Shown piece after piece: positions 4,202 to 26,396 of a DNA stretch of 64,000 bases. Below the pieces are notes generated by a model. The model saw only the letters and a program-made list of their open reading frames with translations, was not told where the DNA came from and searched no databases. Source of the stretch: Pedosphaera parvula Ellin514. Its GTDB lineage: Bacteria; Verrucomicrobiota; Verrucomicrobiia; Limisphaerales; Pedosphaeraceae. The translations under genes were made by a program, and so were the position numbers. The stretch lies in contig NZ_ABOX02000012.1 in the NCBI RefSeq assembly GCF_000172555.1, forward strand, positions 1-64,000, written 5' to 3'. Every line of letters begins with the position of its first letter. Position 1 is the first letter of the stretch.

Positions 4202-4438
4202 AAATAAGCAATTAGCGTCTCATTCACAAATTTGACCATTTGGATGTGTTTAAATCAGGGCGAAAGCCTCTCCTTCTGATTAGGCAACGGCCGAAACCGC
4301 TGGTCGAAAGCGTGGGCTGAAGGCAATTCGACGATTGCATGGTAAACGCTGCAGCAGCGATTGCAAGCCGTTTCAAAGCCGCAATGCCTGAATATATCCT
4401 GACTTCATTCAACTGGTGGTGATGGCATTCAATAGACT

Positions 4439-6742
4439 TCACTCAATAACCTTTTTTGGAAGAGTGAAATAAAACGTTGCGCCCGCATTAATTTCCCCTT
4501 CGGCCCAGGTGCGCCCGCCATGCCTATGAATAATTCTGCGCACATTGGCCAGACCCACGCCCGTCCCTTCGAATTCAGCGGCCCTGTGCAAACGTTGGAA
4601 AACGCCAAACAACTTGTCGGCATATCGCATGTCAAAGCCGACACCATTATCGCGAACGAATACCACATTATCGTCCTCCTCCGGAAAGGAACCGATTTCG
4701 ACGCGGGCCTTCTTTTGGTTGCGACTGTATTTGAGTGCATTATCAATCAAGTTCATGAAGACCTGACGCAACATTTCAGGGTCACCTTCAACTGTGGGAA
4801 GGTCGCCGATCGCCCATTCAATTGCGCGGCCTTTCATATCGCCTTGCAAGTGCCGGGCGGCATCCTGCACCAACGTGGCGAGGTTAACCTGACGCTTATT
4901 CATCTTCACGCGCGACATTCGCGAAAATCCCAACAAATCATCAATCAGCTTGGCCATTTGCTTTGCGGAATCGGCGATGGTTTGAAGATGCTGGCGGCTC
5001 TCCTCGTCCAGTTTTTCCAGGGCAGTGGTTTGAAGTATATCTACAAACCCATCTATATGGCGCAACGGTGCGCGAAGGTCGTGTGAAACCGAATAGCTGA
5101 AGGCTTCCAACTCCTTATTGGCGGCTTCCAATTGTGCTGTTCTTTCCGCCACTCGCTGTTCCAATTCAGTGTTCCAGCGCGCCACCTGTTCCTCATGCTG
5201 TTTTCGTTCCGTGACGTCCCTGGCCACCTTTAAAAAGCCGGTAATTGTATCGGCGGCATCCTTCACTGCCGTGACTGTCCAGATGGCATAATAACTCGAA
5301 CCATCCTTTCGTTGGCACCATCCTTCGTTTTGGATTCTTCCTTCCATTGCAGCTCGTTCCAGTTCCTTTGCCGCCTCCTTTTTGGCCTTCTTATTATCGG
5401 GTTCGCAATGATTAACAACTTTGCTCAAAACCTCATCTGCGCCAAGGCCGGTAATTCGTTCGGCTCCCTCGTTCCAGCTCGTTACGCGTCCATCCTTGTC
5501 GAGCATATAAATGGCGTAGTCCTTGACGCTTTCCACGGCCAGTCGAAAACGTTCCTCGCTTTTGCGAAGATCCTCTTCACTTCGTTTGAGCTCGGAAATA
5601 TCAAGGGCGATGACCTGGATCACCGGGTTCTCAAAATCCTTTTCAAATACAAGCGGCGTGGCGCCAACCATTACGTCCACGGGCCTTCCATCAAATCCGA
5701 CCCAGATTTCTTCCAAAAAAGGCACGATTTTGCCTGCATGCAGCGATTCAATGCGTTTTTCCACGGCCGCCCAGCAATCTGGATGGATGAAGTCGCGAAT
5801 TGATCTGCCAAGCATTTGCTGGAGATCTTTTGCGCCCAGCATTTTTGCCGCTGTCGAATTGCTAAAAATCACGCGTCCACCGCTGTGCACGAGTACCCCG
5901 CATGGGGAAAATTCAACCAGTAATCGATACCGCTCTTCACTTTTTTGCAATGCTTCCTCAGCCTTTGCCTGCTCGGTCACATCACGTGTTACGGTGCTGA
6001 AGCCATTGATTTTTCCCGAACCATCCCGCACTGGGGTAATGCTCCAACTGGCACAGAACCGGGTTCCGTCCTTGCGAACGCACCATCCCTGATGTTTCGT
6101 AGTGCCTTCTATCGGCGAGCGCCTTAAAAGAGATTCGGGAATGCGGCTTTCGGCATCTTCCCCGCTAAAAAATACGGAAAATGGTTTGCCGATAACTTCC
6201 TCGGCCTGGTAGCCCTTCATGCGTTCTGCCCCCGCATTCCAGCTTGCCACGCGGCCTTCAATGTCCAGCATGTAGATCGCGTAATCAGTTACATTTTCGA
6301 TTAATGCCCGAAGCTGTTCCTCGCTCTTTCGTAGCGCGGCTTCAGCCTGCTTTCTGCGAATCCGTTCCTCCTTCTCACGTAATACCCGTCGAACAGCCGG
6401 TGCGAGATCATTGATTCGGTGCTTCAGGACGTAGTCGCTGGCTCCCATTTTGAGATTGTCCAGAATATTTTCCTCACCGAGCGAACTCGTAAAGAAAATG
6501 AACGGGATGTCAGGTGATTTCTCTCTCGCCAGCTGTAAAGCTGCCGATCCGTCGAAGTCCGGAAGCGCATGATCTGAAATAATCAGATCAGGCGTATTCT
6601 TTTGTAATTCATTGAGAAAGGCCGAACGCGTTACCACTCTTTTTAAAGAAAAAGGAATATCTCCTTCTTTAAGAGCACGATTTGCCAGGGTAACATCCCT
6701 GGCCTCATCCTCCAGCATCAAAATGCGAATTTCGTTTTTCAC
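4439..6742 (-). CDS. REC-PAS-PAS-PAS-HisKA-HATPase sensor histidine kinase
   Basis: Soluble 767-residue kinase. The receiver domain (5-125) has Asp57 in LIISDHALPDFDG. Three PAS domains follow at roughly 145-265, 270-395 and 400-520, each closing with a PAC-type run such as GFSTVTRDVTEQ. A coiled coil (ELEQRVAERTAQLEAANKEL) leads to HisKA with His554 in SVSHDLRAPLRH and a C-terminal HATPase_c domain with NLIDNALKYS, DNGVGF and GTGVGLANVRRI. The kinase module is of the type common in phytochrome-like proteins, but there is no GAF/PHY chromophore domain. PAS1 and PAS3 are similar and may have duplicated. It lies upstream of the REC-HisKA_3 kinase on the same strand, across a 237-bp gap. The input signal cannot be told from sequence. 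Confidence 0.93.
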   Translation of the reverse strand: MKNEIRILMLEDEARDVTLANRALKEGDIPFSLKRVVTRSAFLNELQKNTPDLIISDHALPDFDGSAALQLAREKSPDIPFIFFTSSLGEENILDNLKMGASDYVLKHRINDLAPAVRRVLREKEERIRRKQAEAALRKSEEQLRALIENVTDYAIYMLDIEGRVASWNAGAERMKGYQAEEVIGKPFSVFFSGEDAESRIPESLLRRSPIEGTTKHQGWCVRKDGTRFCASWSITPVRDGSGKINGFSTVTRDVTEQAKAEEALQKSEERYRLLVEFSPCGVLVHSGGRVIFSNSTAAKMLGAKDLQQMLGRSIRDFIHPDCWAAVEKRIESLHAGKIVPFLEEIWVGFDGRPVDVMVGATPLVFEKDFENPVIQVIALDISELKRSEEDLRKSEERFRLAVESVKDYAIYMLDKDGRVTSWNEGAERITGLGADEVLSKVVNHCEPDNKKAKKEAAKELERAAMEGRIQNEGWCQRKDGSSYYAIWTVTAVKDAADTITGFLKVARDVTERKQHEEQVARWNTELEQRVAERTAQLEAANKELEAFSYSVSHDLRAPLRHIDGFVDILQTTALEKLDEESRQHLQTIADSAKQMAKLIDDLLGFSRMSRVKMNKRQVNLATLVQDAARHLQGDMKGRAIEWAIGDLPTVEGDPEMLRQVFMNLIDNALKYSRNQKKARVEIGSFPEEDDNVVFVRDNGVGFDMRYADKLFGVFQRLHRAAEFEGTGVGLANVRRIIHRHGGRTWAEGEINAGATFYFTLPKKVIE

Positions 6743-7556
6743 CAGTAAAGGGATTCCACTATAAAAACTCGAAAGTAGACGAGCGAGTCCCCACGTCCAA
6801 TGGGGTGAAGACCTACAAAATCTCTACGTATCATGATTAACAACTCAGTTTAGCACGGTTTTATCAATCTGTCTCTTATTCACATACTTAGTCGCTCTTT
6901 AGGGAGCAGTCGAAATGTTTTATCCGGGTAAATCATTCCGGCACAGACACGGTTAACCCACGCCATGTATCAAAGTAGTAGTATTAAAATCTTCGCCCAT
7001 TCGTTTTATCATTGGGTTCTTTACTCCTGCAGCTGTGCGGTATTCACCTACTTACGATTTCACTATTCCGTCAGTAGCATTTGACCACGATTATGGTGAG
7101 TAAAGCTTCATTGGACCCAACATCGCTCGGTTACTGGCGGAGTCAACAGATTTGCTTTTATCGTAAGGGGATGCGTCGCCCGGCTGCTTTGGCAGGACCC
7201 GGCGACTGCCTTGCAATCAGGAGTGATCATCTGTTCAGGGCTTCTGTTTTGCCGCCGCCAGGACATTTGGGAAAGCTAAATAGCGGAAGAGACAAGGAGG
7301 GAAAGTGAACGGCAGAGCCAATCTGGGTTTATCGAAAGAGCCAATATCTGCTTATCCACTAGAATGTTCATGAGCTCTTCCCAAAGTATGCGGCTGGAAA
7401 TCTGCCTGATGAACTCGGAGCATTTTTTCCCTCTGCTTGGCTTTTGCAGCCGGCAGGAGGGAATCATTCTCCGACGAAGATGCCGTTTGAGAAACTGGCT
7501 GCCGGATTTATTAACCTATCCCAGGTTGCCGGCTCGGGATTGCAATCAACTACCTC
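6743..7556. other. Intergenic region between divergent kinase and NRPS genes
   Basis: About 815 bp lie between the kinase start and the NRPS start. No convincing gene is present: the longest frame (7081-7308, 75 residues) has no family resemblance and no ribosome-binding site. The region must hold the promoters of both divergent transcripts, but I could not settle on a clear -35/-10 pair. A strong imperfect hairpin lies at 7175-7206. The length leaves room for a long 5' leader on the NRPS mRNA. Confidence 0.6.
7175..7206 (+). promoter_or_regulatory. Imperfect hairpin in the NRPS leader region
   Basis: GTCGCC (7175-7180) pairs with GGCGAC (7201-7206). Inside it GG pairs with CC, and CTGC pairs with GCAG around a TTTG loop, giving about 12 base pairs broken by a C-C mismatch and a 2-nt bulge. 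No U-run follows, so it is not a simple terminator. It sits 350 bp upstream of the NRPS start. It could be an operator or mRNA leader element, or have no role. Confidence 0.25.
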
Positions 7557-10500
7557 TTGAACAATAAAATGTTACTAGAAAACGAACTGGCTTCCGGGCA
7601 ACCAGAAGCTTCAACCCAAAAACCAACTCTTCTTGAAAGACGTTTGCAAGGTGTTGGAAAAGGTAACGCCAGGGCCTCCTCGATTCCACGTCGTTTGAAG
7701 CCAAATCACATTGACCTCGCGTTTGCCCAGCAACGATTGTGGTTTCTCGACCAGCTGACTCCCGAAAGTCCGCTCTACAATTTTCCCACCGCCTTCCGGT
7801 TGGCTGGGAACCTGGATGTATTGGCTCTTCAGCGGTCCCTCGATGCAATCGTTGCGAGACATGAGGCCTTGCGCACACGATTTGTTTCGGTGGAGGGAAC
7901 TCCCGTGCAGGTAATCAGCGACATTTCAGCCGTGGATTTACCGCTGGTGGATTTAACGAAAACTCTACCCAGTTTGCGGGAGGCCGAAGCCCAACGCCTG
8001 ATGATCGTCGAAGCCCGGCGCCCTTTCAATTTATCCCAGGATACCATGATGCGGGCTCTGCTTATCAAGTTGGACTCTGCAGGGCACATCCTGGTGGTCA
8101 CCATCCATCACATTGCAACCGATGCATGGTCGATGGGGATATTTTTCAGAGAACTCTCCACTCTATATGCCGCGAATTGTTCTGGAACAAGCGCAGACCT
8201 GCCTGAACTGAAAATTCAGTATGCCGATTACGCAGTCTGGCAACGTGAATGGTTGACGGGTGACGTGCTGGCCAAACAAGCCGGCTATTGGAAGAATCGA
8301 CTTGCAGGTGCAAAGGATTTCCTGGAATTGCCCACCGATCGGCCGCGTCCCCTGGTGCAGAGCTTTCGTGGGGGCACCCAGTCCTACATTATCCGGCCTG
8401 AACTCGTTGAGGGACTGAAACAGCTTGGCCGAAAATCCGGGGCAACACTTTTCATGACTCTGCTGGCGGCTTTCAAGACGCTGCTCTATCGCTATTCCGG
8501 GCAGGAAGACATTTTGGTCGGCTCGCCCATTGCGGGCAGAAGCCGGGTGGAAACAGAGCAATCCATAGGTTTTTTTGTTAATACTTTGGTTTTGCGGACG
8601 GATGTTTCGGGCAACCCGACTTTCAAAGAATTGCTTGGAAGAGTGAAGGATGTCGCGCTGGGCGCCTTTGCTCATCAAGACATGCCTTTCGATAGACTGG
8701 TGGAAGAGTTGCATCCCGAACGGAATTCCAGCTATGCGCCATTCGTGCAAACGATGTTCGTGTTTCAAAATTCACCCTCGGAAAGTTTGAGGTTGCCACA
8801 ACTCAATGTCATCCCGCTGGAGATTAGAGGTGAAACTTCAAAATTCGATCTCTCGTTATTTATCGAGGAACGCGAACATGGGTTGACTGCAAGTTTTGAA
8901 TACAGTGTCAGTCTTTTTGATGATTCATCGATAACCAGGATGTGGGGGCATTTCCAAACCCTGCTCGAGGAAATCATCCATAACCCTGAACAGCGAATTT
9001 CGAAACTTCGGCTGCTCACCAATTTGGAAAGGCAGCAACTCCTAAATGATTGGACCAATACAACCACGGATTATCCCGCCAACAAATGCATTCAGGACCT
9101 GTTTGAGGAGCAAGTTCGATTAACGCCTCACGCTGTCGCACTTAAATTTGAGCTGCAACATTTGACCTACGCTGAGTTGAACGAGCGATCCAATAAGCTG
9201 GCGCACCATCTTGCATCAGCGGGTGTGCGGACTGGCAGCATTGTTGGTGTTTTGATGGACCGGTCTCTCGAACTGATCATAGGCCTTATGGGTATCCTGA
9301 AAGCGGGCGGAGCATATGCAGCCTTGGATCCGTCTTCACCCATGGAGCGTTTGGAGCTGATGCTGGAGGATCTGAACTCCCCGGTTGTGCTAACACGATC
9401 TACCACGGCAGCGCTGCTCCCGAAAAGCAGCAGTTCGGAGAAAACAATTCGCCCGAGGTTGATCTGTCTGGATGAAGATTGGCCTGCCATTGAGAAGGAA
9501 AGCGGCGAAAATCCCGTTTGCGAAACTAATCCGGAAAGCATCGCTTACATTTGTTTTACTTCAGGCTCCACCGGAAGACCCAAGGGAGTATGCATTCCTC
9601 ATCGTGGGGTGGTGCGTTTGGTGCGCAACACTGAGTATATCACGCTGGGTCCGGAGGACCGGATGGCACAGTGCGCCACTGTGTCCTTTGATGCGGCGAC
9701 CTTCGAGGTGTGGGGCGGGTTGTTAAATGGAGGCCAGGTGCATATTTTCTCGCGGGAAAGCATGTTGACGCCCCAGCGATTTGCGGCCGAATTGGAGGCC
9801 TTCAGGATCACGACATTGTTTTTGACCACTGCGCTTTTCAACCAGCTGGTGGCGGAAGTGCCCCGGGGATTTGCGGCCTTAAAGAATGTGCTCTTTGGCG
9901 GGGAAGCTGTGGATCCTGGAGCGGTGCGGAAGGTGCTGCAGACAGGCAGACCCCGGCGGCTCCTGCATGTATATGGGCCGACGGAATGCACGACCTTTGC
10001 GACGTGGAAATTGGTGGAGAGCGTGGAGGAAGGGGCATTGACGGTGCCAATTGGCCGGCCGATTTCCAACACGACGGCCTATATCCTGGATGGAGAGCGA
10101 GAGCCGGTGCCGGTGGGGGTGACGGGGGAGATTTACTTGGGTGGGGACGGGCTGGCGCGGGATTACCTGCTGAGTCCGGCCCTGACGGCAGAGCGCTTTG
10201 TGCACAATCCCTTTGGTAAGGTGGCCGGAGGGCGGTTGTATCGGACGGGGGATTTGGGCCGGTATCTGGCCAGTGGGGAAATTGAATTTATTGGGCGGGT
10301 GGACCATCAGGTGAAGGTGCGTGGCTTCCGGATTGAACCCGGGGAGATTGAGGCGGTTCTGGCACGGCACCCGGGGGTGCAGCAGTGCGTGGTCAATGCG
10401 CATCAAGGCAGAGATGGCAGTAAACAGCTAACTGCCTACTTCGTGCCACACTCTCAACCAGGACCGGGTTCAACCGAGTTGCGCAGGCACCTGAGAGAAA

Positions 10501-13500
10501 AACTTCCTGAATACATGGTCCCGTCGGCTTTCGTCACCATGGAGGCAATTCCGCTGAATCAAAACGGAAAGGTGGATCGCCGGTCCCTTCCTGCTCCTGA
10601 AACCGGCAGAGACAGATCGGAAAAAAAATATTTAGGACCGCGCGATTCAGTTGAAAAGGAACTTATCGGCATCTGGGAATCTGTTTTGGGTATTCAACCG
10701 ATTGGGATTGAAGATCGATTTTTTGATTTGGGTGGCCACTCACTGCTTGCGGTACGACTTTTGGCGCAGATAGAAAAGAAATTTAACAAAAGACTTCCGG
10801 TTTCAGTGGTGTTTCAAGCTCCGACTGTGAGCCAGCTGGCAGGCTATGTTCGGGATGAGAAGACACCCGAGCCGAGTTCTTCCATCGTTGCGATTCAGCC
10901 GCGCGGAAGCAAACCAGCCCTGTTTTTTGTGCATGGTGTCGGTGGCGGTATGTTCTGGGGCTACACAAACCTCGCACGGAGTTTGGGGCTCGATCAACCG
11001 GTTTACGCGCTCAAGTCTCGATCCATGGATGGGCAGCAGGAATTCAAATCCATCGAAGAAATGGCGGCGCAGTATGTTGCTGATATACGCGCTTTTCAGC
11101 CGAAAGGACCTTATCATCTTGGGGGCTACTGTTTCGGTGGGAATGTTGCCTATGAAATGGCACGCCAGTTATGCGCCCAGGGAGAGAAAGTGGCAATGTT
11201 GGCGTTACTGAACTGCGCACCACCCAATTCTACTTATACCTGTGTCAAATGGACACCGAAGATCGCGCTCAAGTTCATACGCAATGTGGGATACCTGATT
11301 GTCCGGTCACTTGGGTGGGGAGCTCAGCAGCGAAATGAATTTCTGCGTTGGAAAGCAGCGCTGATCAGGCGAAGAATGGCACGTTTTTTCAGGCTTACAG
11401 GTGAAAGTGCCAAACGCATCAACGTGGAAGACATGGTGGATTTGTCAGCTTTCCCCAAAGACCAAAAGGAAATTTGGGAAACGCATATCCATGCGCTCAT
11501 AGAATTTTTCCCGAAGCCCTACGCCGGCAAAGCCACGCTGTTCCGTAGTCGGGGACATCAATTGTTTTGTTCTTATGACAATCAGTATGGCTGGGATGAG
11601 TTTGCCAGCGAAGTGGAAGTTCATGTGGTTCCCGGTGCGCACGAAAGCATTTTGGAGGAACCGCACGTGCGGGAAGTGGCGGAAAACATAAAGGCGTGTC
11701 TATTGAAAATGCAAATCCCTGAATTGGTTTCGGCCTCGGCGGCCTCAGCGGCGAAAAAGATATCGACTGCACCCGTTGGCAGCTCGCCGATGTGTAATGA
11801 TACCGAGTCAAATTATCCGGCAGAAATGTGCATCCATCAGTTGTTTGAAGAACAGGTGAAGAGGACTCCGGATGCGAGTGCTGTCATTTTTGGCGAACAA
11901 CAGTTGACTTACCGCGAACTAAACACGTCTGCAAACAAGCTTGCCCACCACCTGCAATCCCTGGGAGTGAGTTCAGACGTGCCGGTCGGATTATGCCTGG
12001 AACGTTCGATCGAACTGGTTACTGCCATTTTGGGCATTCTGAAGGCAGGCGGCGCCTATGTGCCACTCGATCCCGCATACCCAAAGGAACGACTGGCCAT
12101 GATGCTGGACGATTCGCGAGCACCGGTGCTCGTTACCCAGGAGAAGCTGCTCATCACATTGCCTGATCACAAATGCCAGGTGGTTTGTATCGACAAGACA
12201 TTGCCGACTGCCTTCATGGAACAAAATCCAGTCAGCACCGCGGTTCCAGGGAGCCTTGCCTATGTAATCTATACTTCCGGCTCAACGGGTAAACCGAAAG
12301 GCGTGGCCATGGGCCATCGTCCTTTGGTCAATCTCATCTGGTGGCAACTGAAGTCTTCTACGATGGGCAAGGGTGACAAGACGTTGCAGTTTGCCTCCCC
12401 CAGTTTTGATGTTTCTTTTCAGGAGATTTTTTCGACATGGTGTTCTGGCGGTGTGCTAATGTTGATTGATGAAGAAGTTCGGCATGATCCACCGAAATTG
12501 CTGCGTTTTATTCGTGAACAAAAAGTAAACCGCCTCTATTTACCTTTCATCGCACTGCATCAATTGGCCGAATCAGTGACGGAAGAGGATTTACTTCCAG
12601 AGAGTTTGAGAGAGGTCATCACTGCGGGTGAACAGCTACGCATCACCGGCAAAATCACAACTCTTTTCGAAAAGCTAACGAATTGCACGTTGCACAATCA
12701 TTACGGGCCTTCGGAAAGTCATGTGGTGACCGCTTACACCCTGCCGGGTACCCCCGGCCAATGGCCGGCTTTGCCTCCGATTGGAAAACCGATAGCGAAC
12801 ACACAGATCCATTTATTGGACGATCAGTTTCAGCCGGTGGTTGCTGGCGAACCCGGTGAGCTTTACATCGGCGGTGTTTGTCTGGCCCGCGGGTATTTGC
12901 ATCAGGCGCATTTAACATCGGAACGCTTCATTGCTGATCCCACGGCGCTGGAGCAGGGTGCGCGGCTTTATAAAACCGGAGATTTGGCGCGCCTGCTTCC
13001 CGATGGCAACATTGAGTTCCTGGGCCGCGTAGACCACCAGGTGAAGATTCGTGGTTATCGCGTTGAGCTAAGCGAAGTGGAGAATGTCCTTGGAAAGCAT
13101 CCCGCCGCCAGAGAATGTGTAGTTTCAGCCAGAGAAGATGTTCCGGGGCAAAAACGCCTTGTCGGATACCTTGTCCTTCAGCCTGGTCAAAATGTAACCG
13201 TGAAGGATTTGCGGGACTTTTTGCAATCGGAATTGCCTGATTACATGGTGCCCTCGGCATATGTGATTCTTGATTCACTCCCCCTGACACCGAGCGGCAA
13301 GGTAAACCGCATGGCTCTGCCGGAACCAGACCAAGGCCGTCCAGAACTCGGAGCCGAGTATGTTGCTCCTGGAAATGCGACAGAAGAGCGCATTGCGGCA
13401 ATCTGGTCAGAGGTCCTGAACTTGAAGAAAATCGGTGTGCGGGACAATTTTTTTGAACTGGGCGGCCATTCCCTGCTTGTGGCGCAGGTGGTTTCCCGCA

Positions 13501-16500
13501 TTCGACAGACATTCAAAGTGGAACTGCCTTTGTCCAGTCTGTTTGACGCGCCGAGCATTGCCAGTTTGGCGGCGGGAATTGAGGCCGGAACCTGGAACCA
13601 GGGAGGCATGGCGGCGCCCCCAATTAAACCAACCGAGAAAAAGACCAACGCTCCGCTCTCCTTTTCGCAGCGGCGGCTCTGGTTCATAGATCGATTGGAA
13701 CCGGGCAGTCACGCCTACAATGTTCCTCTGGCCATCCGTCTCGAAGGCACTCTGAATGTCGCCGCGCTGGAACAAAGCCTGAATAAAATCATTGAACGTC
13801 ACGAGGCCCTGCGCACCACGATTTCGTTTGTGGACGGAAGTCTTGCACAGGTAACCACTCCACACCTGAAGCTGGCGCTGGCCATAACAGATTTGCGGAA
13901 ACTGGATGAAGCCGACCGCGATGCTCACGCCAAAATGGTTATCGAAGAGGATGCGCGAAAGCCTTTTGACCTGGAGCGTGGCCCGCTGATCCGTGGCACT
14001 CTGGTAAAGTTGGATGATGTGAGAAATGAGTTGTTGGTGGTCATGCACCATATCATTTCAGATGGTTGGTCACTCGGGCTTATTCTTACGGAACTGGATT
14101 TGTTTTATACCGCCTTCACTTCAGGAAAAACAGTTCCCGCACCGCCAGAACTGACCGTCCAATATGTTGATTACGCAGTTTGGCAAAATCAGTGGATGCA
14201 GGGCGAGGTGCTGGAGAAGGAAGTCACTTTTTGGCGGGAGAGATTGGCCGGTGCTCCGAGTGCCATTGAACTGCCCGGTGACCACATGGAGGATTCTGAA
14301 CCGGGTGCCAAATGCGGACTGCATCAAGTGATTCTGCCCGGAGAACTCACCGATTCGTTGAGCAGCCTGAGCCGCCGGGAAGGAACAACCCCTTTCATGG
14401 TTTTGACAGCGGCCCTGGCTACCACTTTGCACAAATGGTCGCAGCAATCTGATCTGGTTATTGGAACAGTGGTGGCGGGGAGAAATCAGAAGGAAATTGA
14501 AGATGTCATCGGCTGTTTCATGAATTTTGTGCCGGTTCGCATAAAGGTGGCTGAACAAAAAACCAGCAGCGAGTTTCTTAAAGATGTTAAACATGCGGTT
14601 CTCGAAGCCCACGCCCACCAGGACTGCCCATTTGAGAAGATTGTGGAAGCAATCAATCCTGAGCGAAAGACAGCCCAGAACCCGTTGTATAATGTTGGGC
14701 TTTTGTTTCAGAACTTTCCGGGCGGCGCATTTAATGCCGCCGGTCTAAAGGCAGAGATGATGCAGGTCGATTTGCAGGCAGCCCTGTTGGATTTGCGGTT
14801 TATAGCCGAGGAGACAGCTGGCGGCTTTGCGATTGCTTGTGAGTATAAAATGCCACTGTTCGAACCCGCCACGATTCAGCATCTGCTGAATTATTTCTGC
14901 AAGAATCTGGAAACTCTAACGAGGGAGCCCCAAAGGAAGATCGCGGAAATAGAAAAATCCCAGGATCTGACGGCCCAGATTAAGGCGGCAAAGGCCAGAC
15001 AGAATCGTCAAACGATTTGCATTGCAGCAACGTTTACTGCCGAACCGCTCGAAGAGGGGCTCAAATACTGGATGAAGGAATTGGGAATACCGGCGGCGGT
15101 TGAGTTTGCGGGTTATAACCAGGTTTTCCAGGAGTTGTTGAATCCGGGGAGTTCACTCGCTCTGAATCAAAATGGCTTGAACGCGATCCTGATCCGGTTG
15201 GAAGACTGGGCCAGGTTCGAGGGAGTGGAGGAATCTTCGTCGTCCTCAGGGGACCAGCGAGTCGAGCGTAGTGTGGATGAATTGACCATGGCATTGAAAG
15301 CGGCTTCGGCACGGCATGCCACTCCCTACCTTGTCTGTTTGTGCCCAGGCTCGGCGAATATTGCCGCTCAACCCGAGCGGGCCGAGTTCTATCGCCAAAT
15401 GGAGACGAGGCTTGCCGGAGAACTGCACCGCATTCCGGGTGTACATTTAACGACCTTTGAGGAAATCGCCAAACTTTATCCGGTTGAAGAGTATAATGAT
15501 CCTCAAGCTGAGGAACTGGGACATATTCCATACACAACTTCATTTTTCACAGCATTGAGTACGATCATTGCGCGCAGGTTCCATGCGTTGAAGCGCGCGG
15601 CTTATAAGGTCATTGTGTTGGATTGTGACAATACACTGTGGTCTGGAGTGGCGGGGGAGGACGGTCCTGACGGGATACAACTGGGTGAGGCACGTTTCGC
15701 GCTGCAAGAATTTATGCGCAAACAGGGAGAGGCCGGCATGCTTCTGTGCCTTTGTAGCAAAAACGAGCAGGAGGATGTTGCGGCTGTCTTTGAACAACGA
15801 CGTGAAATGCCGCTCAAACGCGAACATTTTACTGCCTCGCGCATTAACTGGCTGCCCAAATCCGAAAACATCCGCTCCCTGGCTGATGAATTGAAGTTGG
15901 GATTGGAGAGCTTCATCTTTGTTGACGATAATCCGGTGGAATGCGCAGAGGTGGAGTCTCACTGCCCGGAAGTAATGACCTTGCTCCTGCCGGCTGAGTC
16001 CGGGCAAATTCCGAAATTTCTGGAGCACTGCTGGGTGTTTGATCATTTGAAATTATCCACTGAGGATAAGCACCGAACAGCAATGTATCGCCAGGAGAAG
16101 GAACGGGAACAATTCCGCGAGCAGTCGCTCGGTCTTCAAGATTTCCTCGCCGGGCTGGAGCTGCGTGTCGAAATCACGGATTTAACCAGCAACCAGGTTA
16201 CGCGTGCCGCACAACTGACGTTGCGAACGAACCAGTTCAACATGACGACGCGCCGGCGCACGGAAAGTGATCTGCAAAGCATGTGGCGGCAGGGAAAGAG
16301 TGGTGTGCTCACGGTAAGCGTCCGGGATCGTTTTGGTGATTATGGCCTGGTAGGCTTGATAATCCACGAAGCGGCTGGGAATGCGATAAAGGTGGATACT
16401 TTCCTTCTGAGTTGCCGGGTATTGGGCAGGGGAGTGGAATATCAGATGGTTGTTCGACTCGGGAGACTCGCTTTGGCGAAGGGACTTGACTGGGTTGACT

Positions 16501-17243
16501 TCCACTTTATTCCCAGCGAGAAGAACAAACCTGCATTTAATTTCCTGGAAACTGTGGGAGCCCGGTTTCGACAGCCTACAAACGGAGGCTATATATATCG
16601 ATTTCCTGCCGAGTTTGCTGCAGGAATTGTTTTCACACCGGAAGTTGCAGAAAAGCAGCAGCCTGCCAAAGCTTCTTTCACCGCCGAACACGTGAAAGTG
16701 AAGAGTTCAACTTCGGAACGAAGGGTCAAGTTTACCTGTTGTCGTGAGATCGCGCTGGCGGCAAACGATGTGAGCCAGATCCAACAGGCGATGGCGGCAA
16801 AGTCTCGCACGCGCTCCCGGGATCGCAAGACTTACAGTGCGCCCACTACCGAGACAGAACGCATGCTCAGCAAGATTTGGGAGGAACTCCTGCGTGTGGA
16901 CAAGGTTGGAATCCATGACAACTTTTTTGAATTGGGAGGACATTCTCTTCTCGCAGTCAGACTTTTTGCCCAGGTGGAAAAACTGACCGGCAAGAAGCTG
17001 CCCCTGGTAACCCTGTTTCAGAATTCAACCGTAAAGCAGCTGGCTGATGTATTGTGCCAGAACTCGGGGGTATTCCCGTTCGTCAGTTGTGCCAATCCAC
17101 AAGGTTCCAAACCTCCTCTCTCTCGTTCACGGAGCCGGGGGGGACGTGCTCTGGGGATATGCCAATTTAGCGCCCCATCTCGGCGCGGATCAGGCCGTGT
17201 ATGGAATCAAATCCAGGGCCTTGAACGGAGCCGAGGAATTTAA
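7557..17243 (+). CDS. Nonribosomal peptide synthetase C-A-T-TE-A-T-C-FkbH-T (thioesterase end in another frame)
   Basis: Giant multimodular synthetase, 3228 residues as read, probably about 3470 with its final thioesterase. Domains: C1 (40-480; HHIATDAWS, His185); A1 (510-1010; FTSGSTGRPKG at 667, YRTGDLG, NGKVDR); T1 (GGHSLL, Ser1062); TE1 (1100-1390; GGYCFGGN, Cys1192); A2 (1425-1930; YTSGSTGKPKG at 1572); T2 (Ser1972); C2 (2031-2460; HHIISDGWS, His2165); an FkbH-like HAD/GNAT domain (2486-3020; LDCDNTLWSG with Asp2689 and Asp2691); T3 (Ser3130). By hand alignment to GrsA the A1 pocket reads about D-A-F-F-L-G-V-T-F, like Ile/Val-type codes, and A2 about D-V-Q-Y-I-A-H-V-V, like proline codes. 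FkbH proteins take a glyceryl unit from 1,3-bisphosphoglycerate and load it on a carrier. There is no C domain between TE1 and A2, so two assembly lines appear fused. The start is TTG 7557 or ATG 7569; neither has a clear ribosome-binding site. The frame is lost after about 17065. Confidence 0.92.
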   Translation: MNNKMLLENELASGQPEASTQKPTLLERRLQGVGKGNARASSIPRRLKPNHIDLAFAQQRLWFLDQLTPESPLYNFPTAFRLAGNLDVLALQRSLDAIVARHEALRTRFVSVEGTPVQVISDISAVDLPLVDLTKTLPSLREAEAQRLMIVEARRPFNLSQDTMMRALLIKLDSAGHILVVTIHHIATDAWSMGIFFRELSTLYAANCSGTSADLPELKIQYADYAVWQREWLTGDVLAKQAGYWKNRLAGAKDFLELPTDRPRPLVQSFRGGTQSYIIRPELVEGLKQLGRKSGATLFMTLLAAFKTLLYRYSGQEDILVGSPIAGRSRVETEQSIGFFVNTLVLRTDVSGNPTFKELLGRVKDVALGAFAHQDMPFDRLVEELHPERNSSYAPFVQTMFVFQNSPSESLRLPQLNVIPLEIRGETSKFDLSLFIEEREHGLTASFEYSVSLFDDSSITRMWGHFQTLLEEIIHNPEQRISKLRLLTNLERQQLLNDWTNTTTDYPANKCIQDLFEEQVRLTPHAVALKFELQHLTYAELNERSNKLAHHLASAGVRTGSIVGVLMDRSLELIIGLMGILKAGGAYAALDPSSPMERLELMLEDLNSPVVLTRSTTAALLPKSSSSEKTIRPRLICLDEDWPAIEKESGENPVCETNPESIAYICFTSGSTGRPKGVCIPHRGVVRLVRNTEYITLGPEDRMAQCATVSFDAATFEVWGGLLNGGQVHIFSRESMLTPQRFAAELEAFRITTLFLTTALFNQLVAEVPRGFAALKNVLFGGEAVDPGAVRKVLQTGRPRRLLHVYGPTECTTFATWKLVESVEEGALTVPIGRPISNTTAYILDGEREPVPVGVTGEIYLGGDGLARDYLLSPALTAERFVHNPFGKVAGGRLYRTGDLGRYLASGEIEFIGRVDHQVKVRGFRIEPGEIEAVLARHPGVQQCVVNAHQGRDGSKQLTAYFVPHSQPGPGSTELRRHLREKLPEYMVPSAFVTMEAIPLNQNGKVDRRSLPAPETGRDRSEKKYLGPRDSVEKELIGIWESVLGIQPIGIEDRFFDLGGHSLLAVRLLAQIEKKFNKRLPVSVVFQAPTVSQLAGYVRDEKTPEPSSSIVAIQPRGSKPALFFVHGVGGGMFWGYTNLARSLGLDQPVYALKSRSMDGQQEFKSIEEMAAQYVADIRAFQPKGPYHLGGYCFGGNVAYEMARQLCAQGEKVAMLALLNCAPPNSTYTCVKWTPKIALKFIRNVGYLIVRSLGWGAQQRNEFLRWKAALIRRRMARFFRLTGESAKRINVEDMVDLSAFPKDQKEIWETHIHALIEFFPKPYAGKATLFRSRGHQLFCSYDNQYGWDEFASEVEVHVVPGAHESILEEPHVREVAENIKACLLKMQIPELVSASAASAAKKISTAPVGSSPMCNDTESNYPAEMCIHQLFEEQVKRTPDASAVIFGEQQLTYRELNTSANKLAHHLQSLGVSSDVPVGLCLERSIELVTAILGILKAGGAYVPLDPAYPKERLAMMLDDSRAPVLVTQEKLLITLPDHKCQVVCIDKTLPTAFMEQNPVSTAVPGSLAYVIYTSGSTGKPKGVAMGHRPLVNLIWWQLKSSTMGKGDKTLQFASPSFDVSFQEIFSTWCSGGVLMLIDEEVRHDPPKLLRFIREQKVNRLYLPFIALHQLAESVTEEDLLPESLREVITAGEQLRITGKITTLFEKLTNCTLHNHYGPSESHVVTAYTLPGTPGQWPALPPIGKPIANTQIHLLDDQFQPVVAGEPGELYIGGVCLARGYLHQAHLTSERFIADPTALEQGARLYKTGDLARLLPDGNIEFLGRVDHQVKIRGYRVELSEVENVLGKHPAARECVVSAREDVPGQKRLVGYLVLQPGQNVTVKDLRDFLQSELPDYMVPSAYVILDSLPLTPSGKVNRMALPEPDQGRPELGAEYVAPGNATEERIAAIWSEVLNLKKIGVRDNFFELGGHSLLVAQVVSRIRQTFKVELPLSSLFDAPSIASLAAGIEAGTWNQGGMAAPPIKPTEKKTNAPLSFSQRRLWFIDRLEPGSHAYNVPLAIRLEGTLNVAALEQSLNKIIERHEALRTTISFVDGSLAQVTTPHLKLALAITDLRKLDEADRDAHAKMVIEEDARKPFDLERGPLIRGTLVKLDDVRNELLVVMHHIISDGWSLGLILTELDLFYTAFTSGKTVPAPPELTVQYVDYAVWQNQWMQGEVLEKEVTFWRERLAGAPSAIELPGDHMEDSEPGAKCGLHQVILPGELTDSLSSLSRREGTTPFMVLTAALATTLHKWSQQSDLVIGTVVAGRNQKEIEDVIGCFMNFVPVRIKVAEQKTSSEFLKDVKHAVLEAHAHQDCPFEKIVEAINPERKTAQNPLYNVGLLFQNFPGGAFNAAGLKAEMMQVDLQAALLDLRFIAEETAGGFAIACEYKMPLFEPATIQHLLNYFCKNLETLTREPQRKIAEIEKSQDLTAQIKAAKARQNRQTICIAATFTAEPLEEGLKYWMKELGIPAAVEFAGYNQVFQELLNPGSSLALNQNGLNAILIRLEDWARFEGVEESSSSSGDQRVERSVDELTMALKAASARHATPYLVCLCPGSANIAAQPERAEFYRQMETRLAGELHRIPGVHLTTFEEIAKLYPVEEYNDPQAEELGHIPYTTSFFTALSTIIARRFHALKRAAYKVIVLDCDNTLWSGVAGEDGPDGIQLGEARFALQEFMRKQGEAGMLLCLCSKNEQEDVAAVFEQRREMPLKREHFTASRINWLPKSENIRSLADELKLGLESFIFVDDNPVECAEVESHCPEVMTLLLPAESGQIPKFLEHCWVFDHLKLSTEDKHRTAMYRQEKEREQFREQSLGLQDFLAGLELRVEITDLTSNQVTRAAQLTLRTNQFNMTTRRRTESDLQSMWRQGKSGVLTVSVRDRFGDYGLVGLIIHEAAGNAIKVDTFLLSCRVLGRGVEYQMVVRLGRLALAKGLDWVDFHFIPSEKNKPAFNFLETVGARFRQPTNGGYIYRFPAEFAAGIVFTPEVAEKQQPAKASFTAEHVKVKSSTSERRVKFTCCREIALAANDVSQIQQAMAAKSRTRSRDRKTYSAPTTETERMLSKIWEELLRVDKVGIHDNFFELGGHSLLAVRLFAQVEKLTGKKLPLVTLFQNSTVKQLADVLCQNSGVFPFVSCANPQGSKPPLSRSRSRGGRALGICQFSAPSRRGSGRVWNQIQGLERSRGI

Positions 17244-17964
17244 ATCCCTCGAGGACATGGCTTCTTTCTATATCGAGCAAATACGTTTGGTGCAAAAGGA
17301 AGGACCGTATTATCTCGGTGGATACTGTTTCGGAGGAAACGTTGCCTATGAGATGGCCCGGCAGTTGGAGGAGCAGGGCGAGGAAGTGGCACTGCTGGCC
17401 CTCCTCGACGCCGCGCCTTCAAACCGTGGCTATGAACAGGTGCCGTGGTGGAAACCGGCATATGGATTTCGCTTTGCCCAAAATTTCTCTTTTTGGTTGG
17501 ACGATTTCTTCAAGTCCAAACCCGAGGAACGACGCGAATTTGTATTACGCAAGGCAAGGTCATTAGGACGGAAATTCCTTAAGAAGATATTCCGATCTGG
17601 CGCGGGCCAGCCACAGGTTGACTTGGAGGAAGTCATTGACCTTACCAAATTTCCCCAGCACGAACTGCGTCTCTGGCAGCTTCATCTGGATGCTTTGGTG
17701 CGGCATGTATCCAAGCCCTATGCTGGGAAGGTTACCCTATTCCGCACCCGGGGCCAGCCGCTATTCTGTTCTCTCGATGATGATTTTTGCTGGGGCGCAC
17801 TGGTGGGCGCACTGGAAATACGAAGAATCCCCGGCTCTCACGAAAGCATCTTTATGGAGCCGGATGTTAAGGAACTGGCCAATGAACTGAAGGCATGTCT
17901 TGTGGAAACCTGCTCTCAAACCACTGCTGAAAAGAAAGAAAACCTGGAACTGACTGTTGTATGA
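17047..17964 (+). CDS. C-terminal thioesterase domain of the NRPS (frame-shifted continuation)
   Basis: Type I thioesterase (alpha/beta hydrolase) of about 270 residues. LVHGAGGDVLWGYANLAPHLG is followed by the nucleophile elbow GGYCFGGN, a helical lid, and the catalytic-type His in PGSHESI. It closely resembles TE1 within the same synthetase and also has Cys in the nucleophile position. Matching it to TE1 shows that the residues joining it to T3 are spread over two frames between 17065 and 17125 (YSRSSVVPI in this frame, PQGSKPPL in the other), so at least three small indels lie there. It is therefore most likely the last domain of one protein running 7557-17964, not a separate gene; the ATG at 17047 falls inside the T3 domain. 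It would release the product of the A2-T2-C2-FkbH-T3 half. It overlaps the exporter start as ATGA. Confidence 0.85.
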   Translation: MYCARTRGYSRSSVVPIHKVPNLLSLVHGAGGDVLWGYANLAPHLGADQAVYGIKSRALNGAEEFKSLEDMASFYIEQIRLVQKEGPYYLGGYCFGGNVAYEMARQLEEQGEEVALLALLDAAPSNRGYEQVPWWKPAYGFRFAQNFSFWLDDFFKSKPEERREFVLRKARSLGRKFLKKIFRSGAGQPQVDLEEVIDLTKFPQHELRLWQLHLDALVRHVSKPYAGKVTLFRTRGQPLFCSLDDDFCWGALVGALEIRRIPGSHESIFMEPDVKELANELKACLVETCSQTTAEKKENLELTVV

Positions 17965-19625
17965 ATTTGATTAAGTTTTTATTACGAACCTGTAGAGGGA
18001 TGATTATCATAACTACGCTAACTGCACTCTTGAGCGGTGCTTGTAACGCGGCCTTGATTGCCCTGGTCAACACTTCCCTAAATAATGCCAAATGGTCCGT
18101 GGCCGTTCTGGTCGGAGGGTTTGTGGCCCTGGTATTGGGGAAAACGATCACGAACATTTTGTCACAAGTGCTGCTCGCTCGATTTGCGCAGGGTGCCGTA
18201 AGCGGCTTGAGGCGCGATCTGACCAAAAGAATTCTTGGAGTGCCCCTGCGCCAGGTCGAAAGCATTGGCACTCATCGCATTCTGGTTGCCCTTACCGATG
18301 ACGTGTTCAATATCACCCAGGCGCTGCTGGCCATACCTATTATCACAGTGAATGTAGCGATCCTCGTGGGAGGAGCGGTTTATCTGGGGCTGCTATCCTG
18401 GAAAATCTTGCTGGGGATTGGCGTGCTCGTGGTCTTCGGAGGCATCAGTTATCGAATCATGATGACGAGCGCTTTCAAAAGCCTGAATGCAGCGCGTGAG
18501 GAGGAGGACAAACTCTTTAGCTATTTCCGGGCGCTTACGGATGGAATCAAGGAACTGAAGCTGCATCGAAGTCGGCGCAAAGTGTTCCTTGCGGAAAACA
18601 TTCACGACACCACGGAAACCTTCCAGAAATATAATGTGGAAGCCGAATGCCGCTTCATTTATGCGCAAAATTGGAATCACCTCCTGTTTTATCTATTGGT
18701 GGGATGTGTTTTGTTTATGATGCCCAAAATGGGGCAGGTAAGTCATGCCGCAATGACTGGATACGTAATCACCATTCTTTACTTGATGGGGCCACTCGCG
18801 GGAGTGATGGGCAGTATGTCGCTTTTTGGCAGGGCGAGCATTGCGCTTCAAAAGGTGGAAGAGCTTGGGTTGTCACTGGCAGCCGCCTCCACCGAAGAGG
18901 CTGTCATCAATAAAACTGAACGCGAAGTTCCATTTCGCAGTTTGGAATTGATCAACGTGCAACATGCCTACCGGCATGAGAAAGAGGATACCAACTTTGT
19001 GCTGGGGCCAATCGATCTAAAGTTTGGCCCTGGGGAACTGGTTTTTCTCGTCGGTGGCAATGGCAGTGGCAAATCCACCTTGGCCAAGATTGTAACCGGC
19101 CTCTATTTTCCTGAAGTCGGCGAGATTCGTTGGAATGGCAAACGGGTGGACAATTCGAATCGCGATGATTACCGCCAACTGTTTTCAGCCATTTTCTCTG
19201 ATTTCTACCTGTTCGATAATCTAATGGGCTTGAACCGGCCTGATCTGGATGCAAAAGCGAAGGAATATCTCGTCCAGTTACACCTGGATCATAAGATTTC
19301 CGTCAAAGACGGCAAGCTCTCCACTACTTCGGTATCGCAAGGTCAACGCAAACGGCTGGCATTGCTTACAGCTTATTTGGAAGACCGGCCATTTTATCTC
19401 TTTGACGAATGGGCATCAGACCAGGATCCCTTGTTCAAGGACGTGTTCTACACCCGCTTGCTGCCGGAGCTTAAAGCGAGGGGAAAAACCTGTTTCGTTA
19501 TTACTCATGACGACAAGTATTTCTATATGGCTGACCGCGTGATCAAGCTCGATTACGGCAAGATGGAGCATTTAAATCAATTAGATGGTGAGGCTCTGGG
19601 AACGTTGATTCCGGCAACCCGCTAA
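17961..19625 (+). CDS. Cyclic-peptide-type ABC exporter (SyrD/PvdE/YojI family)
   Basis: A 554-residue half-transporter fused to its ATPase, in the inner membrane, presumed to export the NRPS product. Six hydrophobic segments fill residues 1-310. The nucleotide-binding domain has Walker A GGNGSGKST near 365-373, the signature VSQGQRKRLAL (the S-x-GQ-x-KRLAL form typical of the cyclic peptide exporter family) and Walker B YLFDEWASDQDP. The family's D-E-W-A-x-D-Q-D-P sequence is diagnostic. The start overlaps the thioesterase stop codon by four bases (ATGA), so translation is probably coupled and both belong to one operon. No periplasmic or outer-membrane partner is encoded next to it. Confidence 0.93.
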   Translation: MNLIKFLLRTCRGMIIITTLTALLSGACNAALIALVNTSLNNAKWSVAVLVGGFVALVLGKTITNILSQVLLARFAQGAVSGLRRDLTKRILGVPLRQVESIGTHRILVALTDDVFNITQALLAIPIITVNVAILVGGAVYLGLLSWKILLGIGVLVVFGGISYRIMMTSAFKSLNAAREEEDKLFSYFRALTDGIKELKLHRSRRKVFLAENIHDTTETFQKYNVEAECRFIYAQNWNHLLFYLLVGCVLFMMPKMGQVSHAAMTGYVITILYLMGPLAGVMGSMSLFGRASIALQKVEELGLSLAAASTEEAVINKTEREVPFRSLELINVQHAYRHEKEDTNFVLGPIDLKFGPGELVFLVGGNGSGKSTLAKIVTGLYFPEVGEIRWNGKRVDNSNRDDYRQLFSAIFSDFYLFDNLMGLNRPDLDAKAKEYLVQLHLDHKISVKDGKLSTTSVSQGQRKRLALLTAYLEDRPFYLFDEWASDQDPLFKDVFYTRLLPELKARGKTCFVITHDDKYFYMADRVIKLDYGKMEHLNQLDGEALGTLIPATR

Positions 19626-19891: not shown

Positions 19892-20926
19892 TTATTTGGC
19901 TTTAATTTGAGTCCAAATCTCGTCGTAAATACGAGTTTTACCACCAAGATCTTCGAGGAATTCGAGTTTCGCTTTCACCTCTGTCGAAGGATAAATAGCG
20001 GGGTTTTTCAAGTCGGGAACCGGGATGAAGGCCATGGCCGCCTTATTCGGTGAGGCAAATTGAGTGTATCCCGAGAGTTGAGCCCCAATTCTTGCATCGA
20101 GCATGAAGTTAATGAATTTCTCCGCCAGCTCACGATGGGGTGCTTGCGCGGGAATCGCCAGATTATCGAGCCAGATCTGACTGCCCTCCTTGGGAATAAA
20201 GAAAATGGTATCCTTGTCATCGGTCATGCCACGGACACCTTCACCGCTATAGGCGATGGCGACCCGGGCACTCTTGCCAAGCACCTTGTTCTTTGCGCCT
20301 ACGCTCCCTTCAAATCCGGTGGAACGTTTCTTGGCCTCGATGATGAGATCGCGCGCCTCCTTCAATTGTTTAGGATCGGTCGAGTTAAGGCTGTAACCCT
20401 TGTATTTGAGAGCGGCGCCAACCATGTCACGAACGGAATCGATCAGGATAAAGGAACCGGCTTGTTGTTTTGGATCGAAGAGCAATCCCCACGTCGGCGT
20501 GAAAGGTTGGTCTTTGGATTGCCGGGCGAAAATGCCGACCGTGCCCCACTGATACGCAGCCGTGTATTTGTTTCCCCGATCAAAGGGCGGATTGGCGAAT
20601 GTTTCATCGAGATTTTTGAGATTGGGAATGTGTTCGTGGCGCAATGGAACGAGCAATCCCAGCTTTACCATGGCTGGAATCATATGGTCCGGCGGCACGA
20701 CAACGTCATAGAGCGAAGCGCCGCCGCCCTGCATTTTGGCAAGCATGCTTTCCGCTTCCTCATAGAGGTCGATGTTGACCTTGCAATCAAACTGCTTTTC
20801 AAACTGGGTGACGATCTTGGGATCGATGTATTCGCTCCAGATAAAAAGGTTTAGTTTTTGTTGCTCTGCGAAGCCGGAATAGGCCGCAAGCAGCGTCGTG
20901 ATGGCAATGATCAGGTATCTCTTCAT
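19892..20926 (-). CDS. potD: Spermidine/putrescine-type ABC transporter substrate-binding protein
   Basis: Periplasmic binding protein of 344 residues in the PotD/PotF family. A signal peptide (MKRYLIIAITTLLAAYSGFA) is followed by the family start LNLFIWSEYIDPKIVTQFEK, then YDVVVPPDHMI, AAYQWGTVGIF and AIAYSGEG. The initiation codon is taken as ATG 20926; the frame also has a TTG at 20929. It is the last gene of a potA-B-C-D operon on the minus strand, 11 bp after potC. Polyamine specificity is inferred from family and gene order; related members bind other cationic ligands. Confidence 0.9.
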   Translation of the reverse strand: MKRYLIIAITTLLAAYSGFAEQQKLNLFIWSEYIDPKIVTQFEKQFDCKVNIDLYEEAESMLAKMQGGGASLYDVVVPPDHMIPAMVKLGLLVPLRHEHIPNLKNLDETFANPPFDRGNKYTAAYQWGTVGIFARQSKDQPFTPTWGLLFDPKQQAGSFILIDSVRDMVGAALKYKGYSLNSTDPKQLKEARDLIIEAKKRSTGFEGSVGAKNKVLGKSARVAIAYSGEGVRGMTDDKDTIFFIPKEGSQIWLDNLAIPAQAPHRELAEKFINFMLDARIGAQLSGYTQFASPNKAAMAFIPVPDLKNPAIYPSTEVKAKLEFLEDLGGKTRIYDEIWTQIKAK

Positions 20927-20937
20927 CAATTTTATAA

Positions 20938-21732
20938 TTATGTCGATTTTCTGTTGCGTTGCAACAGGGTTGCAATAATCGTGCCGAGAATGGAGGCGAG
21001 AACGATCAAGGTGGAGAGGGCATTTATATCCGGAGTGATGCCACGTTTCACCGAGGAATAGATGAAAATGGGCAGGGTGGTGGAGCCTGGCCCGCTGGTA
21101 AAAAAGCTCACCACAAAGTCGTCGAGACTAAGGGTGAACGCGAGCATGGCGCCCGCAACGATGCCAGGGATGATGAGTGGAAAGGTTATATGCAGGAATG
21201 TCTGCCACTCGTTGGCTCCAAGATCGTGAGCGGCCTCCTCAAGTGCCGGATCGAGCCCGATGAGTCGTGAACGAACCACGATGGCGACGAAGGGAATCTG
21301 AAAGGTTACGTGTGCCAGGATCATGGTAGTAAGGCCCAGTTCAAACAGGCCAAGCCATTTTCTTATCAGGGAATAAAACAGCAACAGGGAGATCGCCATG
21401 ATGATGTCTGGTATAAACACCGGAACATATAAGAACCAGTTGAGCAGGCTCTTGCCTGGAAAACGGAACCGATTCAATCCGTAACCGAGCATGGTGCCGA
21501 GCACGGTGGAGATCAACGTGCTAAATACCGCGAGCAGCAACGTGTTTTTGGTGGCTGAAAGTGCGAGCGAGTTTTCCCACAGCGTGGCATACCATTGAGT
21601 GGTGAATCCGCTCCAGCCCGCGCCAAATCGGGCGGCGTTGAAGGAGTAAACAATTACTATGGCCAAAGGCGCGTAAAGAAACAGGTACAACAGACCTGCC
21701 ACGATGCTTAGAGGTATTGAGGTGCGTTTCAC
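20938..21732 (-). CDS. potC: Polyamine-type ABC transporter permease (PotC)
   Basis: Inner-membrane permease of about 264 residues with six hydrophobic segments. The EAA-type coupling loop reads LEEAAHDLGANEWQTFLHITFP. A GTG start at 21730-21732 overlaps the potB stop as GTGA, a usual sign of translational coupling; the longer frame up to 21837 only reads back through the end of potB. It pairs with PotB to form the channel of the importer. Confidence 0.9.
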   Translation of the reverse strand: MKRTSIPLSIVAGLLYLFLYAPLAIVIVYSFNAARFGAGWSGFTTQWYATLWENSLALSATKNTLLLAVFSTLISTVLGTMLGYGLNRFRFPGKSLLNWFLYVPVFIPDIIMAISLLLFYSLIRKWLGLFELGLTTMILAHVTFQIPFVAIVVRSRLIGLDPALEEAAHDLGANEWQTFLHITFPLIIPGIVAGAMLAFTLSLDDFVVSFFTSGPGSTTLPIFIYSSVKRGITPDINALSTLIVLASILGTIIATLLQRNRKST

Positions 21733-26380: not shown

Positions 26381-26396
26381 CGCGGAAGGAAAATTT

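Follow-up and report, generated by a model that had tools for sequence, protein, structure and literature searches.

An internal thioesterase-fold domain between two halves of an FkbH-containing nonribosomal peptide synthetase in Pedosphaera parvula and its relatives

In nonribosomal peptide synthetases (NRPSs), condensation (C) domains join the building units and thioesterase (TE) domains act as stops. Here we describe an NRPS gene (7557..17964, forward strand) in a 64,000-nucleotide window of the genome of Pedosphaera parvula Ellin514, a soil verrucomicrobium (contig NZ_ABOX02000012.1, positions 1 to 64,000), which encodes the order C-A-T-TE-A-T-C-FkbH-T-TE, where A and T denote adenylation and carrier domains. 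Its first thioesterase (TE1) lies in the middle of the protein and its second (TE2) at the end. No internal thioesterase is known to us to stand where a C domain would otherwise link NRPS modules, and a literature search for internal or inter-module NRPS thioesterases returned nothing closer than trans-AT polyketide synthase (PKS) cases such as alpiniamide.

FkbH domains are already known in NRPS lines, those of vioprolide and cystomanamide (described in excerpts of PMC8949500), so the view of a reading made from the window's letters alone (the sequence-only reading), which held them to be mainly a matter of polyketide and tetronate systems, is not supported in that form. Its account of the fusion, the pocket codes, the FkbH domain, the second C domain (C2) and an adjacent exporter is supported; it did not include the conserved Cys-Asn-His set of TE1, a relative with a tandem TE-A-T-TE-A-T arrangement, or the conservation of the architecture across the order. 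As in the vioprolide and cystomanamide NRPSs, FkbH here takes the place of the A domain in an NRPS module, and the vioprolide line includes a C domain that makes a glycerate ester, as we propose for C2 (excerpts of PMC8949500). Vioprolide, compared by its description, differs in esterifying a fatty acyl group early in a linear line. Unlike both of these lines, C-FkbH-T-TE ends the line in our locus, after an A-T pair that stands behind the internal thioesterase.

Several described thioesterases resemble TE1 in part. The obafluorin synthetase ObiF (C-A-PCP-TE-MLP-A) likewise carries an internal Cys-type TE followed by an A domain, without a C domain between them (passages of PMC6668435); unlike the line described here, its C-terminal A domain loads a separate carrier. 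TE1 shares the Cys nucleophile of the ObiF and SulM thioesterases. In the position I and II terms used for the catalytic acid in the SulM paper, the ObiF1 and SulM TEs carry a position II Asp, placed 30 residues ahead of the His (excerpts of PMC11298585), whereas TE1 has an Asn at position I. The best solved-structure match of the TE1 profile is AB3403, an Acinetobacter C-A-T-TE protein with a Cys nucleophile (Z 27.0), though its TE is terminal and has an Asp at position I (excerpts of PMC11298585). Iterative thioesterases offer a parallel in chemistry, as a carrier-bound nucleophile attacks the TE-bound chain, which has been shown for GrsB (passages of PMC11735501), and in fold, since TE1 matches the TEs of EntF and Vlm2. 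The GrsB, EntF and Vlm thioesterases are terminal and join copies of one unit, however, whereas TE1, from a site inside the protein, would link two modules that differ. The internal TE of alpiniamide also has a Cys nucleophile and sits directly before an NRPS module (excerpts of PMC6113372), and the oocydin branching TE matches the fold of TE1 at Z 24.4; a branching-acylation TE is cited by title in the reference list of PMC11260071. In contrast to TE1, the internal TEs of alpiniamide, burkholderic acid and oocydin lie in trans-AT PKS modules, where editing or branching has been proposed.

FkbH domains in NRPSs and glycerate esters made by C domains (both in excerpts of PMC8949500), as well as internal TEs in trans-AT PKSs, are thus already known. 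Judged from the sequences, what is new here is a clade of TE1-type domains with a Cys-Asn-His set, found both internally and at protein ends, together with a related clade of terminal Cys-Asp/Glu-His domains that includes TE2.

A ten-domain synthetase, in one open frame in relatives

Pfam and NCBIfam scans bore out the domain order proposed from the sequence alone. Contig 12, which the window opens, belongs to an assembly of 7,410,698 bases and 102 contigs. In the main NRPS frame (7557-17243, frame 1; an alternative in-frame ATG lies 12 bases inside the TTG at 7557), which stops at 17243, ahead of TE2, Pfam marks two condensation and two AMP-binding domains, three carriers and a single thioesterase. 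The second thioesterase was found by Pfam in a shifted frame (17047-17964) that overlaps the main one. The reading frame is broken within a CT-rich stretch at about 17.1 kb (near 17100-17160); the intact relatives do not share this break, which may be a sequencing error or a real mutation. A search for homologous architectures found the same ten domains in the same order, as one open frame, in the genomes G001 (a Pedosphaera metagenome-assembled genome, 3486 amino acids), G002 (3488) and G005 (3489); in G007 they are spread over separate contigs. Because the G001, G002 and G005 orthologues are single open frames, the fused architecture does not depend on repair of the window sequence. Homologues are thus single genes, which rules out an assembly artefact or two separate genes and confirms the ten-domain fused architecture.

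The C, A and T domains carry the usual motifs of modular type I NRPSs, except that the first C domain (C1; 7692..9056, boundaries approximate, PF00668) has HHIATDA instead of HHxxxDG. It is followed on the same strand by A1 (9087..10616), T1 (10632..10871), TE1 (10887..11741), A2 (11802..13346), T2 (13377..13601), C2 (13632..14981, HHIISDG), FkbH (14997..16586, including its N-terminal part), T3 (16797..17036) and, in the other frame, TE2 (17092..17916); all were recognized by Pfam, with TIGR01686 for FkbH, and each carrier has the motif LGGHSL. In a linear line, a C domain precedes every A-T pair after the first. This rule is broken between TE1 and A2, which are separated by 20 residues without a C domain.

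Pocket codes, taken at the GrsA pocket positions, agree with the aliphatic and proline-like assignments made in the sequence-only reading: DAFFLGVTFK (A1) is Val/Ile-like and DVQYIAHVVK (A2) is Pro-like. Orthologues of the same family (L064, L065, L028 and L196) have DALWLGGTFK or DAWWLGGTFK in the first A domain and DVQF(I/V)A(H/Q)VVK in the second, again Val-like and Pro-like codes. The A domain after the TE is not always Pro-like, as its codes in other families are mostly of the forms D(I/V)EN... or DLFN....

The FkbH domain scores 308.1 bits against TIGR01686 (cut-off 146.65), contains an intact DCDNTLW motif (15621-15641) and is followed by the carrier T3. D210, C211, D212 and T214 are invariant in an alignment of seven sequences, and 97 of 105 FkbH domains have a Cys between the two Asp residues of the motif; domains with fewer than 280 aligned residues were left out of the FkbH tree. 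With this motif and that of C2 both present, neither domain is missing the catalytic residues whose absence had been a concern. The FkbH domain probably loads a glycerate unit on T3, the donor expected for this family being 1,3-bisphosphoglycerate. C2 groups with other C domains that precede FkbH, in keeping with its assigned role: it falls in a 17-row clade, 16 rows of which precede FkbH and which includes C domains from Acidobacteriota and Aquimarina records, while 13 of 29 pre-FkbH C domains fall outside the clade. Rows with fewer than about 380 aligned residues were left out of this tree, whose rows are C domains without known type, so that starter or elongation type is read from their neighbors. 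C1 clusters in the same analysis with C domains of C-A-T-TE proteins. Three further FkbH domains occur in the same P. parvula genome (G000:C82:5424-6407, G000:C50:53103-54062 and G000:C48:6108-7061), and FkbH matches were also seen on three viral contigs.

The arrangement is conserved beyond the closest relatives. A TE1 search (E <= 1e-40) of 320 genomes of the order, P. parvula included, found matches in 38; among those opened, at least 12 genomes in five families place a TE1-type TE directly before an A domain, and in a sixth family G051 has a Ser-Asp-His TE followed by an A domain. Eleven genomes, a lower bound like the other counts of fused genomes because many of the 38 are known from short loci or are unopened, have both a TE1-type TE and an A-T-C(-A-T-C)-FkbH half. 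The A domain directly follows the TE in all 11: nine in one frame, G007 on separate contigs and G512 across an ambiguous base. In all 13 T-TE-A junctions measured, the TE and the A domain are 8-75 residues apart without an intervening C domain; one of these junctions (L180) has a Ser-Asp-His TE.

Longer forms (4557-4776 amino acids) occur in other families of the order. G015 and G049 encode C-A-T-TE-A-T-C-A-T-C-FkbH-T-TE in one frame (4557 and 4661 amino acids), and the longer form is also found in G464, where a contig end cuts it, and in G645, where C2 was found in two pieces. In G651, a contig start cuts the order TE-A-T-C-FkbH-T-C-A-T-TE, of whose leading TE the end portion alone is present. 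A separate C-A-T protein lies just upstream of the NRPS in G002, G015 and G049. The HHxxxD pattern was not found in the extra middle C domain of L031, L034 and L177, and is present in L179. We considered G512 as an unfused form, since it has T-TE and A-T-C-FkbH-T-TE in two frames, and rejected it: the break lies at an ambiguous assembly base where the frames meet, and the other frame reads through the TE end.

FkbH matches were present in 20 of 58 genomes (P. parvula and 57 relatives). Across a phylum-wide set of 387 genomes, P. parvula included, FkbH matched in 10 at 1e-100 and TE1 in three at 1e-40. Among the best 80 of 469 named FkbH loci from all bacteria, many of them cut by contig ends, a TE is followed by an A domain in three, all recorded as Verrucomicrobia; C precedes FkbH in 22, FkbH-T-TE occurs in 26 and C-FkbH-T-TE in five. 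The FkbH-T-TE order without a preceding C domain is seen in 21 of these 80 loci (within L064-L143; for example L070, L074, L075, L096, L102, L106 and L118), in proteins mostly of about 1000 amino acids that come mainly from cyanobacteria and Planctomycetales, with a GGMCAGG Cys TE in 11. A literature search pairing Verrucomicrobi- with FkbH found no report, and one on nonribosomal peptide synthetases of P. parvula brought up a lasonolide paper. On plasmids, a search with TE1 plus the start of A2 gave 1595 matching records, and 24 of the 25 listed span 2.58-2.72 kb, which fits A-T-TE (the other, H40, spans 2.0 kb); the TE-A adjacency may occur there too, on records that give spans and not gene orders.

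Two related thioesterase clades

Both TE1 and TE2 match PF00975, the alpha/beta-hydrolase family of type I thioesterases, and both contain the motif GGYCFGG. They differ at the acid of the catalytic set: the Asp or Glu usual at position I is present in TE2 (Asp), which has Cys-Asp-His, and absent from TE1, which has an Asn instead. The TE1 codons are 11130-11132 (Cys), 11211-11213 (Asn) and 11640-11642 (His). In AlphaFold models (pLDDT 82.9 for TE1), Asn111 of TE1 and Asp121 of TE2 are each predicted to lie directly after the strand that comes next to the nucleophile helix in sequence, corresponding to position I. In an 18-row alignment of TE1, Cys84 and His254 are invariant (18/18) and Asn111 is nearly so (at least 90%), indicating a domain that is constrained and not decayed.

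A tree of thioesterases, from which six of 92 were left out as fragments, near-duplicates or misaligned, places the two domains in separate, related clades. The TE1 clade has 23 rows (SH-aLRT 97), of which 22 carry Cys-Asn-His as their catalytic set and L185 carries Cys-Asp-His. Its members are followed by an A domain in 11 rows, by a C domain in one (L193), by the ambiguous base of G512 in one and by the end of the protein in 10. The TE2 clade has 20 rows (SH-aLRT 98), with Cys-Asp-His in 12 and Cys-Glu-His in eight, and its TEs are terminal in all 20. The Cys-Glu-His terminal TEs are those of L166-L169, L181, L182, L190 and L191, and this set also occurs in a neighboring group (L174-L176).

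The ten members that end stand-alone proteins suggest, by sequence relationship, that TE1 is a former chain terminator. They also speak for the head-to-tail fusion that had been proposed from the window, as the first half of the synthetase resembles C-A-T-TE proteins that stand alone and have TE1-clade TEs. P. parvula itself has such a protein: the last member of a second NRPS cluster (G000:C2:130001-158000; L188, L202) is a stand-alone C-A-T-TE, and its TE is of the Cys-Asn-His TE1 type.

The TE1 model matches the TEs of EntF, AB3403 and NocB at Z of about 24-27 among the matches listed, which also include the Vlm2 TE, 7crn, 6ojd (NocB) and 7r0x (oocydin). An Asp 28-31 residues before the His was not found in TE1, where the near-invariant D233 sits 21 residues before it. 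An ObiF-like, beta-lactone-forming TE was set aside as the default reading of TE1, which is without Asp at the aligned position II, with D233 as the remaining candidate. Formation of a beta-lactone by TE2 may occur.

Possible passage of the chain across TE1

Since the junction between TE1 and A2 has no C domain, a chain on T1 reaches T2 through TE1, through another protein, or never. We tentatively favor, at a little less than an even chance, a single-protein NRPS in which the terminal TE of a first line has been turned into a coupler of two segments. C1-A1-T1 would build an acyl- or aminoacyl-Val/Ile thioester, and the chain would move onto the TE1 cysteine. Prolyl-S-T2, charged by A2, would then attack the TE1-bound chain through its free amine, in place of water, and so take the chain onto T2, a reverse transfer as in the GrsB TE. 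C2 would esterify the chain with the hydroxyl of the FkbH-loaded glyceryl unit on T3, after which TE2 would set the product free, by hydrolysis or as a ring, for export from the cytoplasm through the ABC transporter encoded next to the NRPS. Candidate products are an aminoacyl-glycerate or a longer acyl-peptidyl-glycerate.

The protein could instead be two independent lines fused end to end, with TE1 releasing an acyl- or aminoacyl-Val/Ile while A2-T2-C2-FkbH-T3-TE2 makes a prolyl-glycerate ester, in line with the sequence-only reading; the two products may be joined later or used separately. We regard this as unlikely, if a serious contender: stand-alone proteins end in a TE1-clade TE in 10 of 23 rows, A2-T2 resembles a normal A-T starter module, and the part after the TE in G026 begins with a C domain. 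Against it, none of the 11 genomes with both halves showed A-T-C-FkbH as a gene of its own, G007 and G512 being in pieces. Two relatives bear more directly on the choice. The second protein of a G652 locus (L178, G652:C81:15001-35000; 4514-16429) reads KS-AT-T-C-A-T-TE-A-T-TE-A-T, with two internal Cys-Asn-His TEs and no C domain ahead of the later A-T pairs, so that, within this protein, only the TEs could join these pairs to the chain. The G652 gene is followed by an ABC exporter (Pfam match), a methyltransferase and a phosphopantetheinyl transferase, and the 50 kb read of this 58-kb contig contain neither FkbH nor a final TE. G051 encodes C-A-T-TE-A(Pro)-T-TE, whose last A-T-TE would merely activate and release one residue unless a chain arrives, which favors a relay. 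Independence would turn TE-A-T-TE-A-T in G652 and TE-A-T-TE in G051 into useless single-residue lines, and the G652 architecture, which weighs most between the two readings, is hard to read as separate lines. We favor the relay through TE1 because independence leaves A-T pairs without a partner in these two genomes and because the GrsB TE provides a precedent. In GrsB, a carrier-bound amine attacks the TE-bound chain, mixed monomers included, and small bound chains are believed to favor ligation (passages of PMC11735501).

Several observations weigh against the relay. The ten TE1-clade TEs that end their proteins include three of five such loci (L184, L186 and L192) in which a same-strand gene of exporter size follows (613, 575 and 567 amino acids); the stand-alone TE1-type proteins of L187 and L188 are instead followed by a gene on the opposite strand. 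These endings and exporter-sized neighbors argue that a TE1-type TE can act as a normal terminator, and because the stand-alone proteins carry the Asn as well, this replacement of the acid is no hallmark of internal TEs. A C domain comes after the TE1-clade TE of G026 (L193), a place in which a coupler would be unneeded, and the C-FkbH-T-TE segment of this genome is on a different contig, preceded by a C-A-A-T frame. No release domain was seen after the last T of the G652 protein, nor was HHxxxD found by motif search in its single C domain. Finally, no NRPS gene was seen upstream of C1 within 7.5 kb in the window, 5.5 kb in G001 and 11 kb in G005, so that no NRPS donor for C1 is visible there.

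This missing upstream gene would fit a looped line, in which domain order is not reaction order: prolyl-T2 would start C1, Pro-Val on T1 would be released by TE1, and T2 would also feed C2. C1 clusters with the C domains of C-A-T-TE proteins, including three that are encoded behind another NRPS gene (L184, L186 and L188), and in G056 (L186) a C-A(Pro-like)-T protein lies directly ahead of C-A(Val-like)-T-TE. We nevertheless give the loop little credence, as the upstream C-A-T protein in G002, G015 and G049 could feed C1 and G652 has too few C domains for it.

TE1 could also be an in-line editing, epimerizing or branching domain, with the chain getting to T2 by another route or partner enzyme. 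Its close folds include bifunctional epimerizing TEs (7crn; NocB, 6ojd) and the oocydin internal branching TE (7r0x), and the alpiniamide internal Cys-TE has an unclear role (excerpts of PMC6113372). We find this rather improbable: there is no C domain between T1 and T2 to carry the chain, and fold matches are no proof of function, with the terminal TEs of EntF and AB3403 matching equally well or better.

If the coupler reading holds, the Cys-Asn-His TE1 class would be a TE-fold peptide-bond former that evolved from a chain terminator and replaces a C domain between NRPS modules, at one junction in the FkbH lines and at two consecutive junctions in G652, giving nonribosomal synthesis a second way to perform its central joining reaction; this generalization is possible, and we put it clearly short of an even chance. 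A conserved stop domain in a joining position, in tandem in G652, lets the idea of a thioesterase as inter-module ligase be tested directly. If true, it would provide a new fusion point for synthetase engineering and correct product predictions that end the chain at the first TE. The locus is, in addition, a probable glycerate-ester line from Verrucomicrobiota.

Exporter and neighboring genes

The NRPS gene overlaps by 4 bases a gene for a SyrD/PvdE-type exporter (17961..19625, forward strand), an assignment already made from the sequence and upheld by its match to TIGR01194, the family of cyclic peptide export ABC transporters (503.5 bits, with a cut-off of 286.2). An ABC exporter gene overlaps the NRPS gene by the same 4 bases in L064, L065 and L028. 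Near the NRPS and exporter genes of G005, the locus L028 also contains a match to N-acyl amino acid synthase (FeeM; 3854-5593, reverse strand).

Elsewhere in the window, a response regulator and two histidine kinases (2449-6742, reverse strand) adjoin the NRPS gene divergently. Downstream of the exporter lie an ABC importer operon encoding a solute-binding protein, two permeases and an ATPase (19892-23875, reverse strand) and a DUF1800 and DUF1501 gene pair (24794-27746, forward strand).

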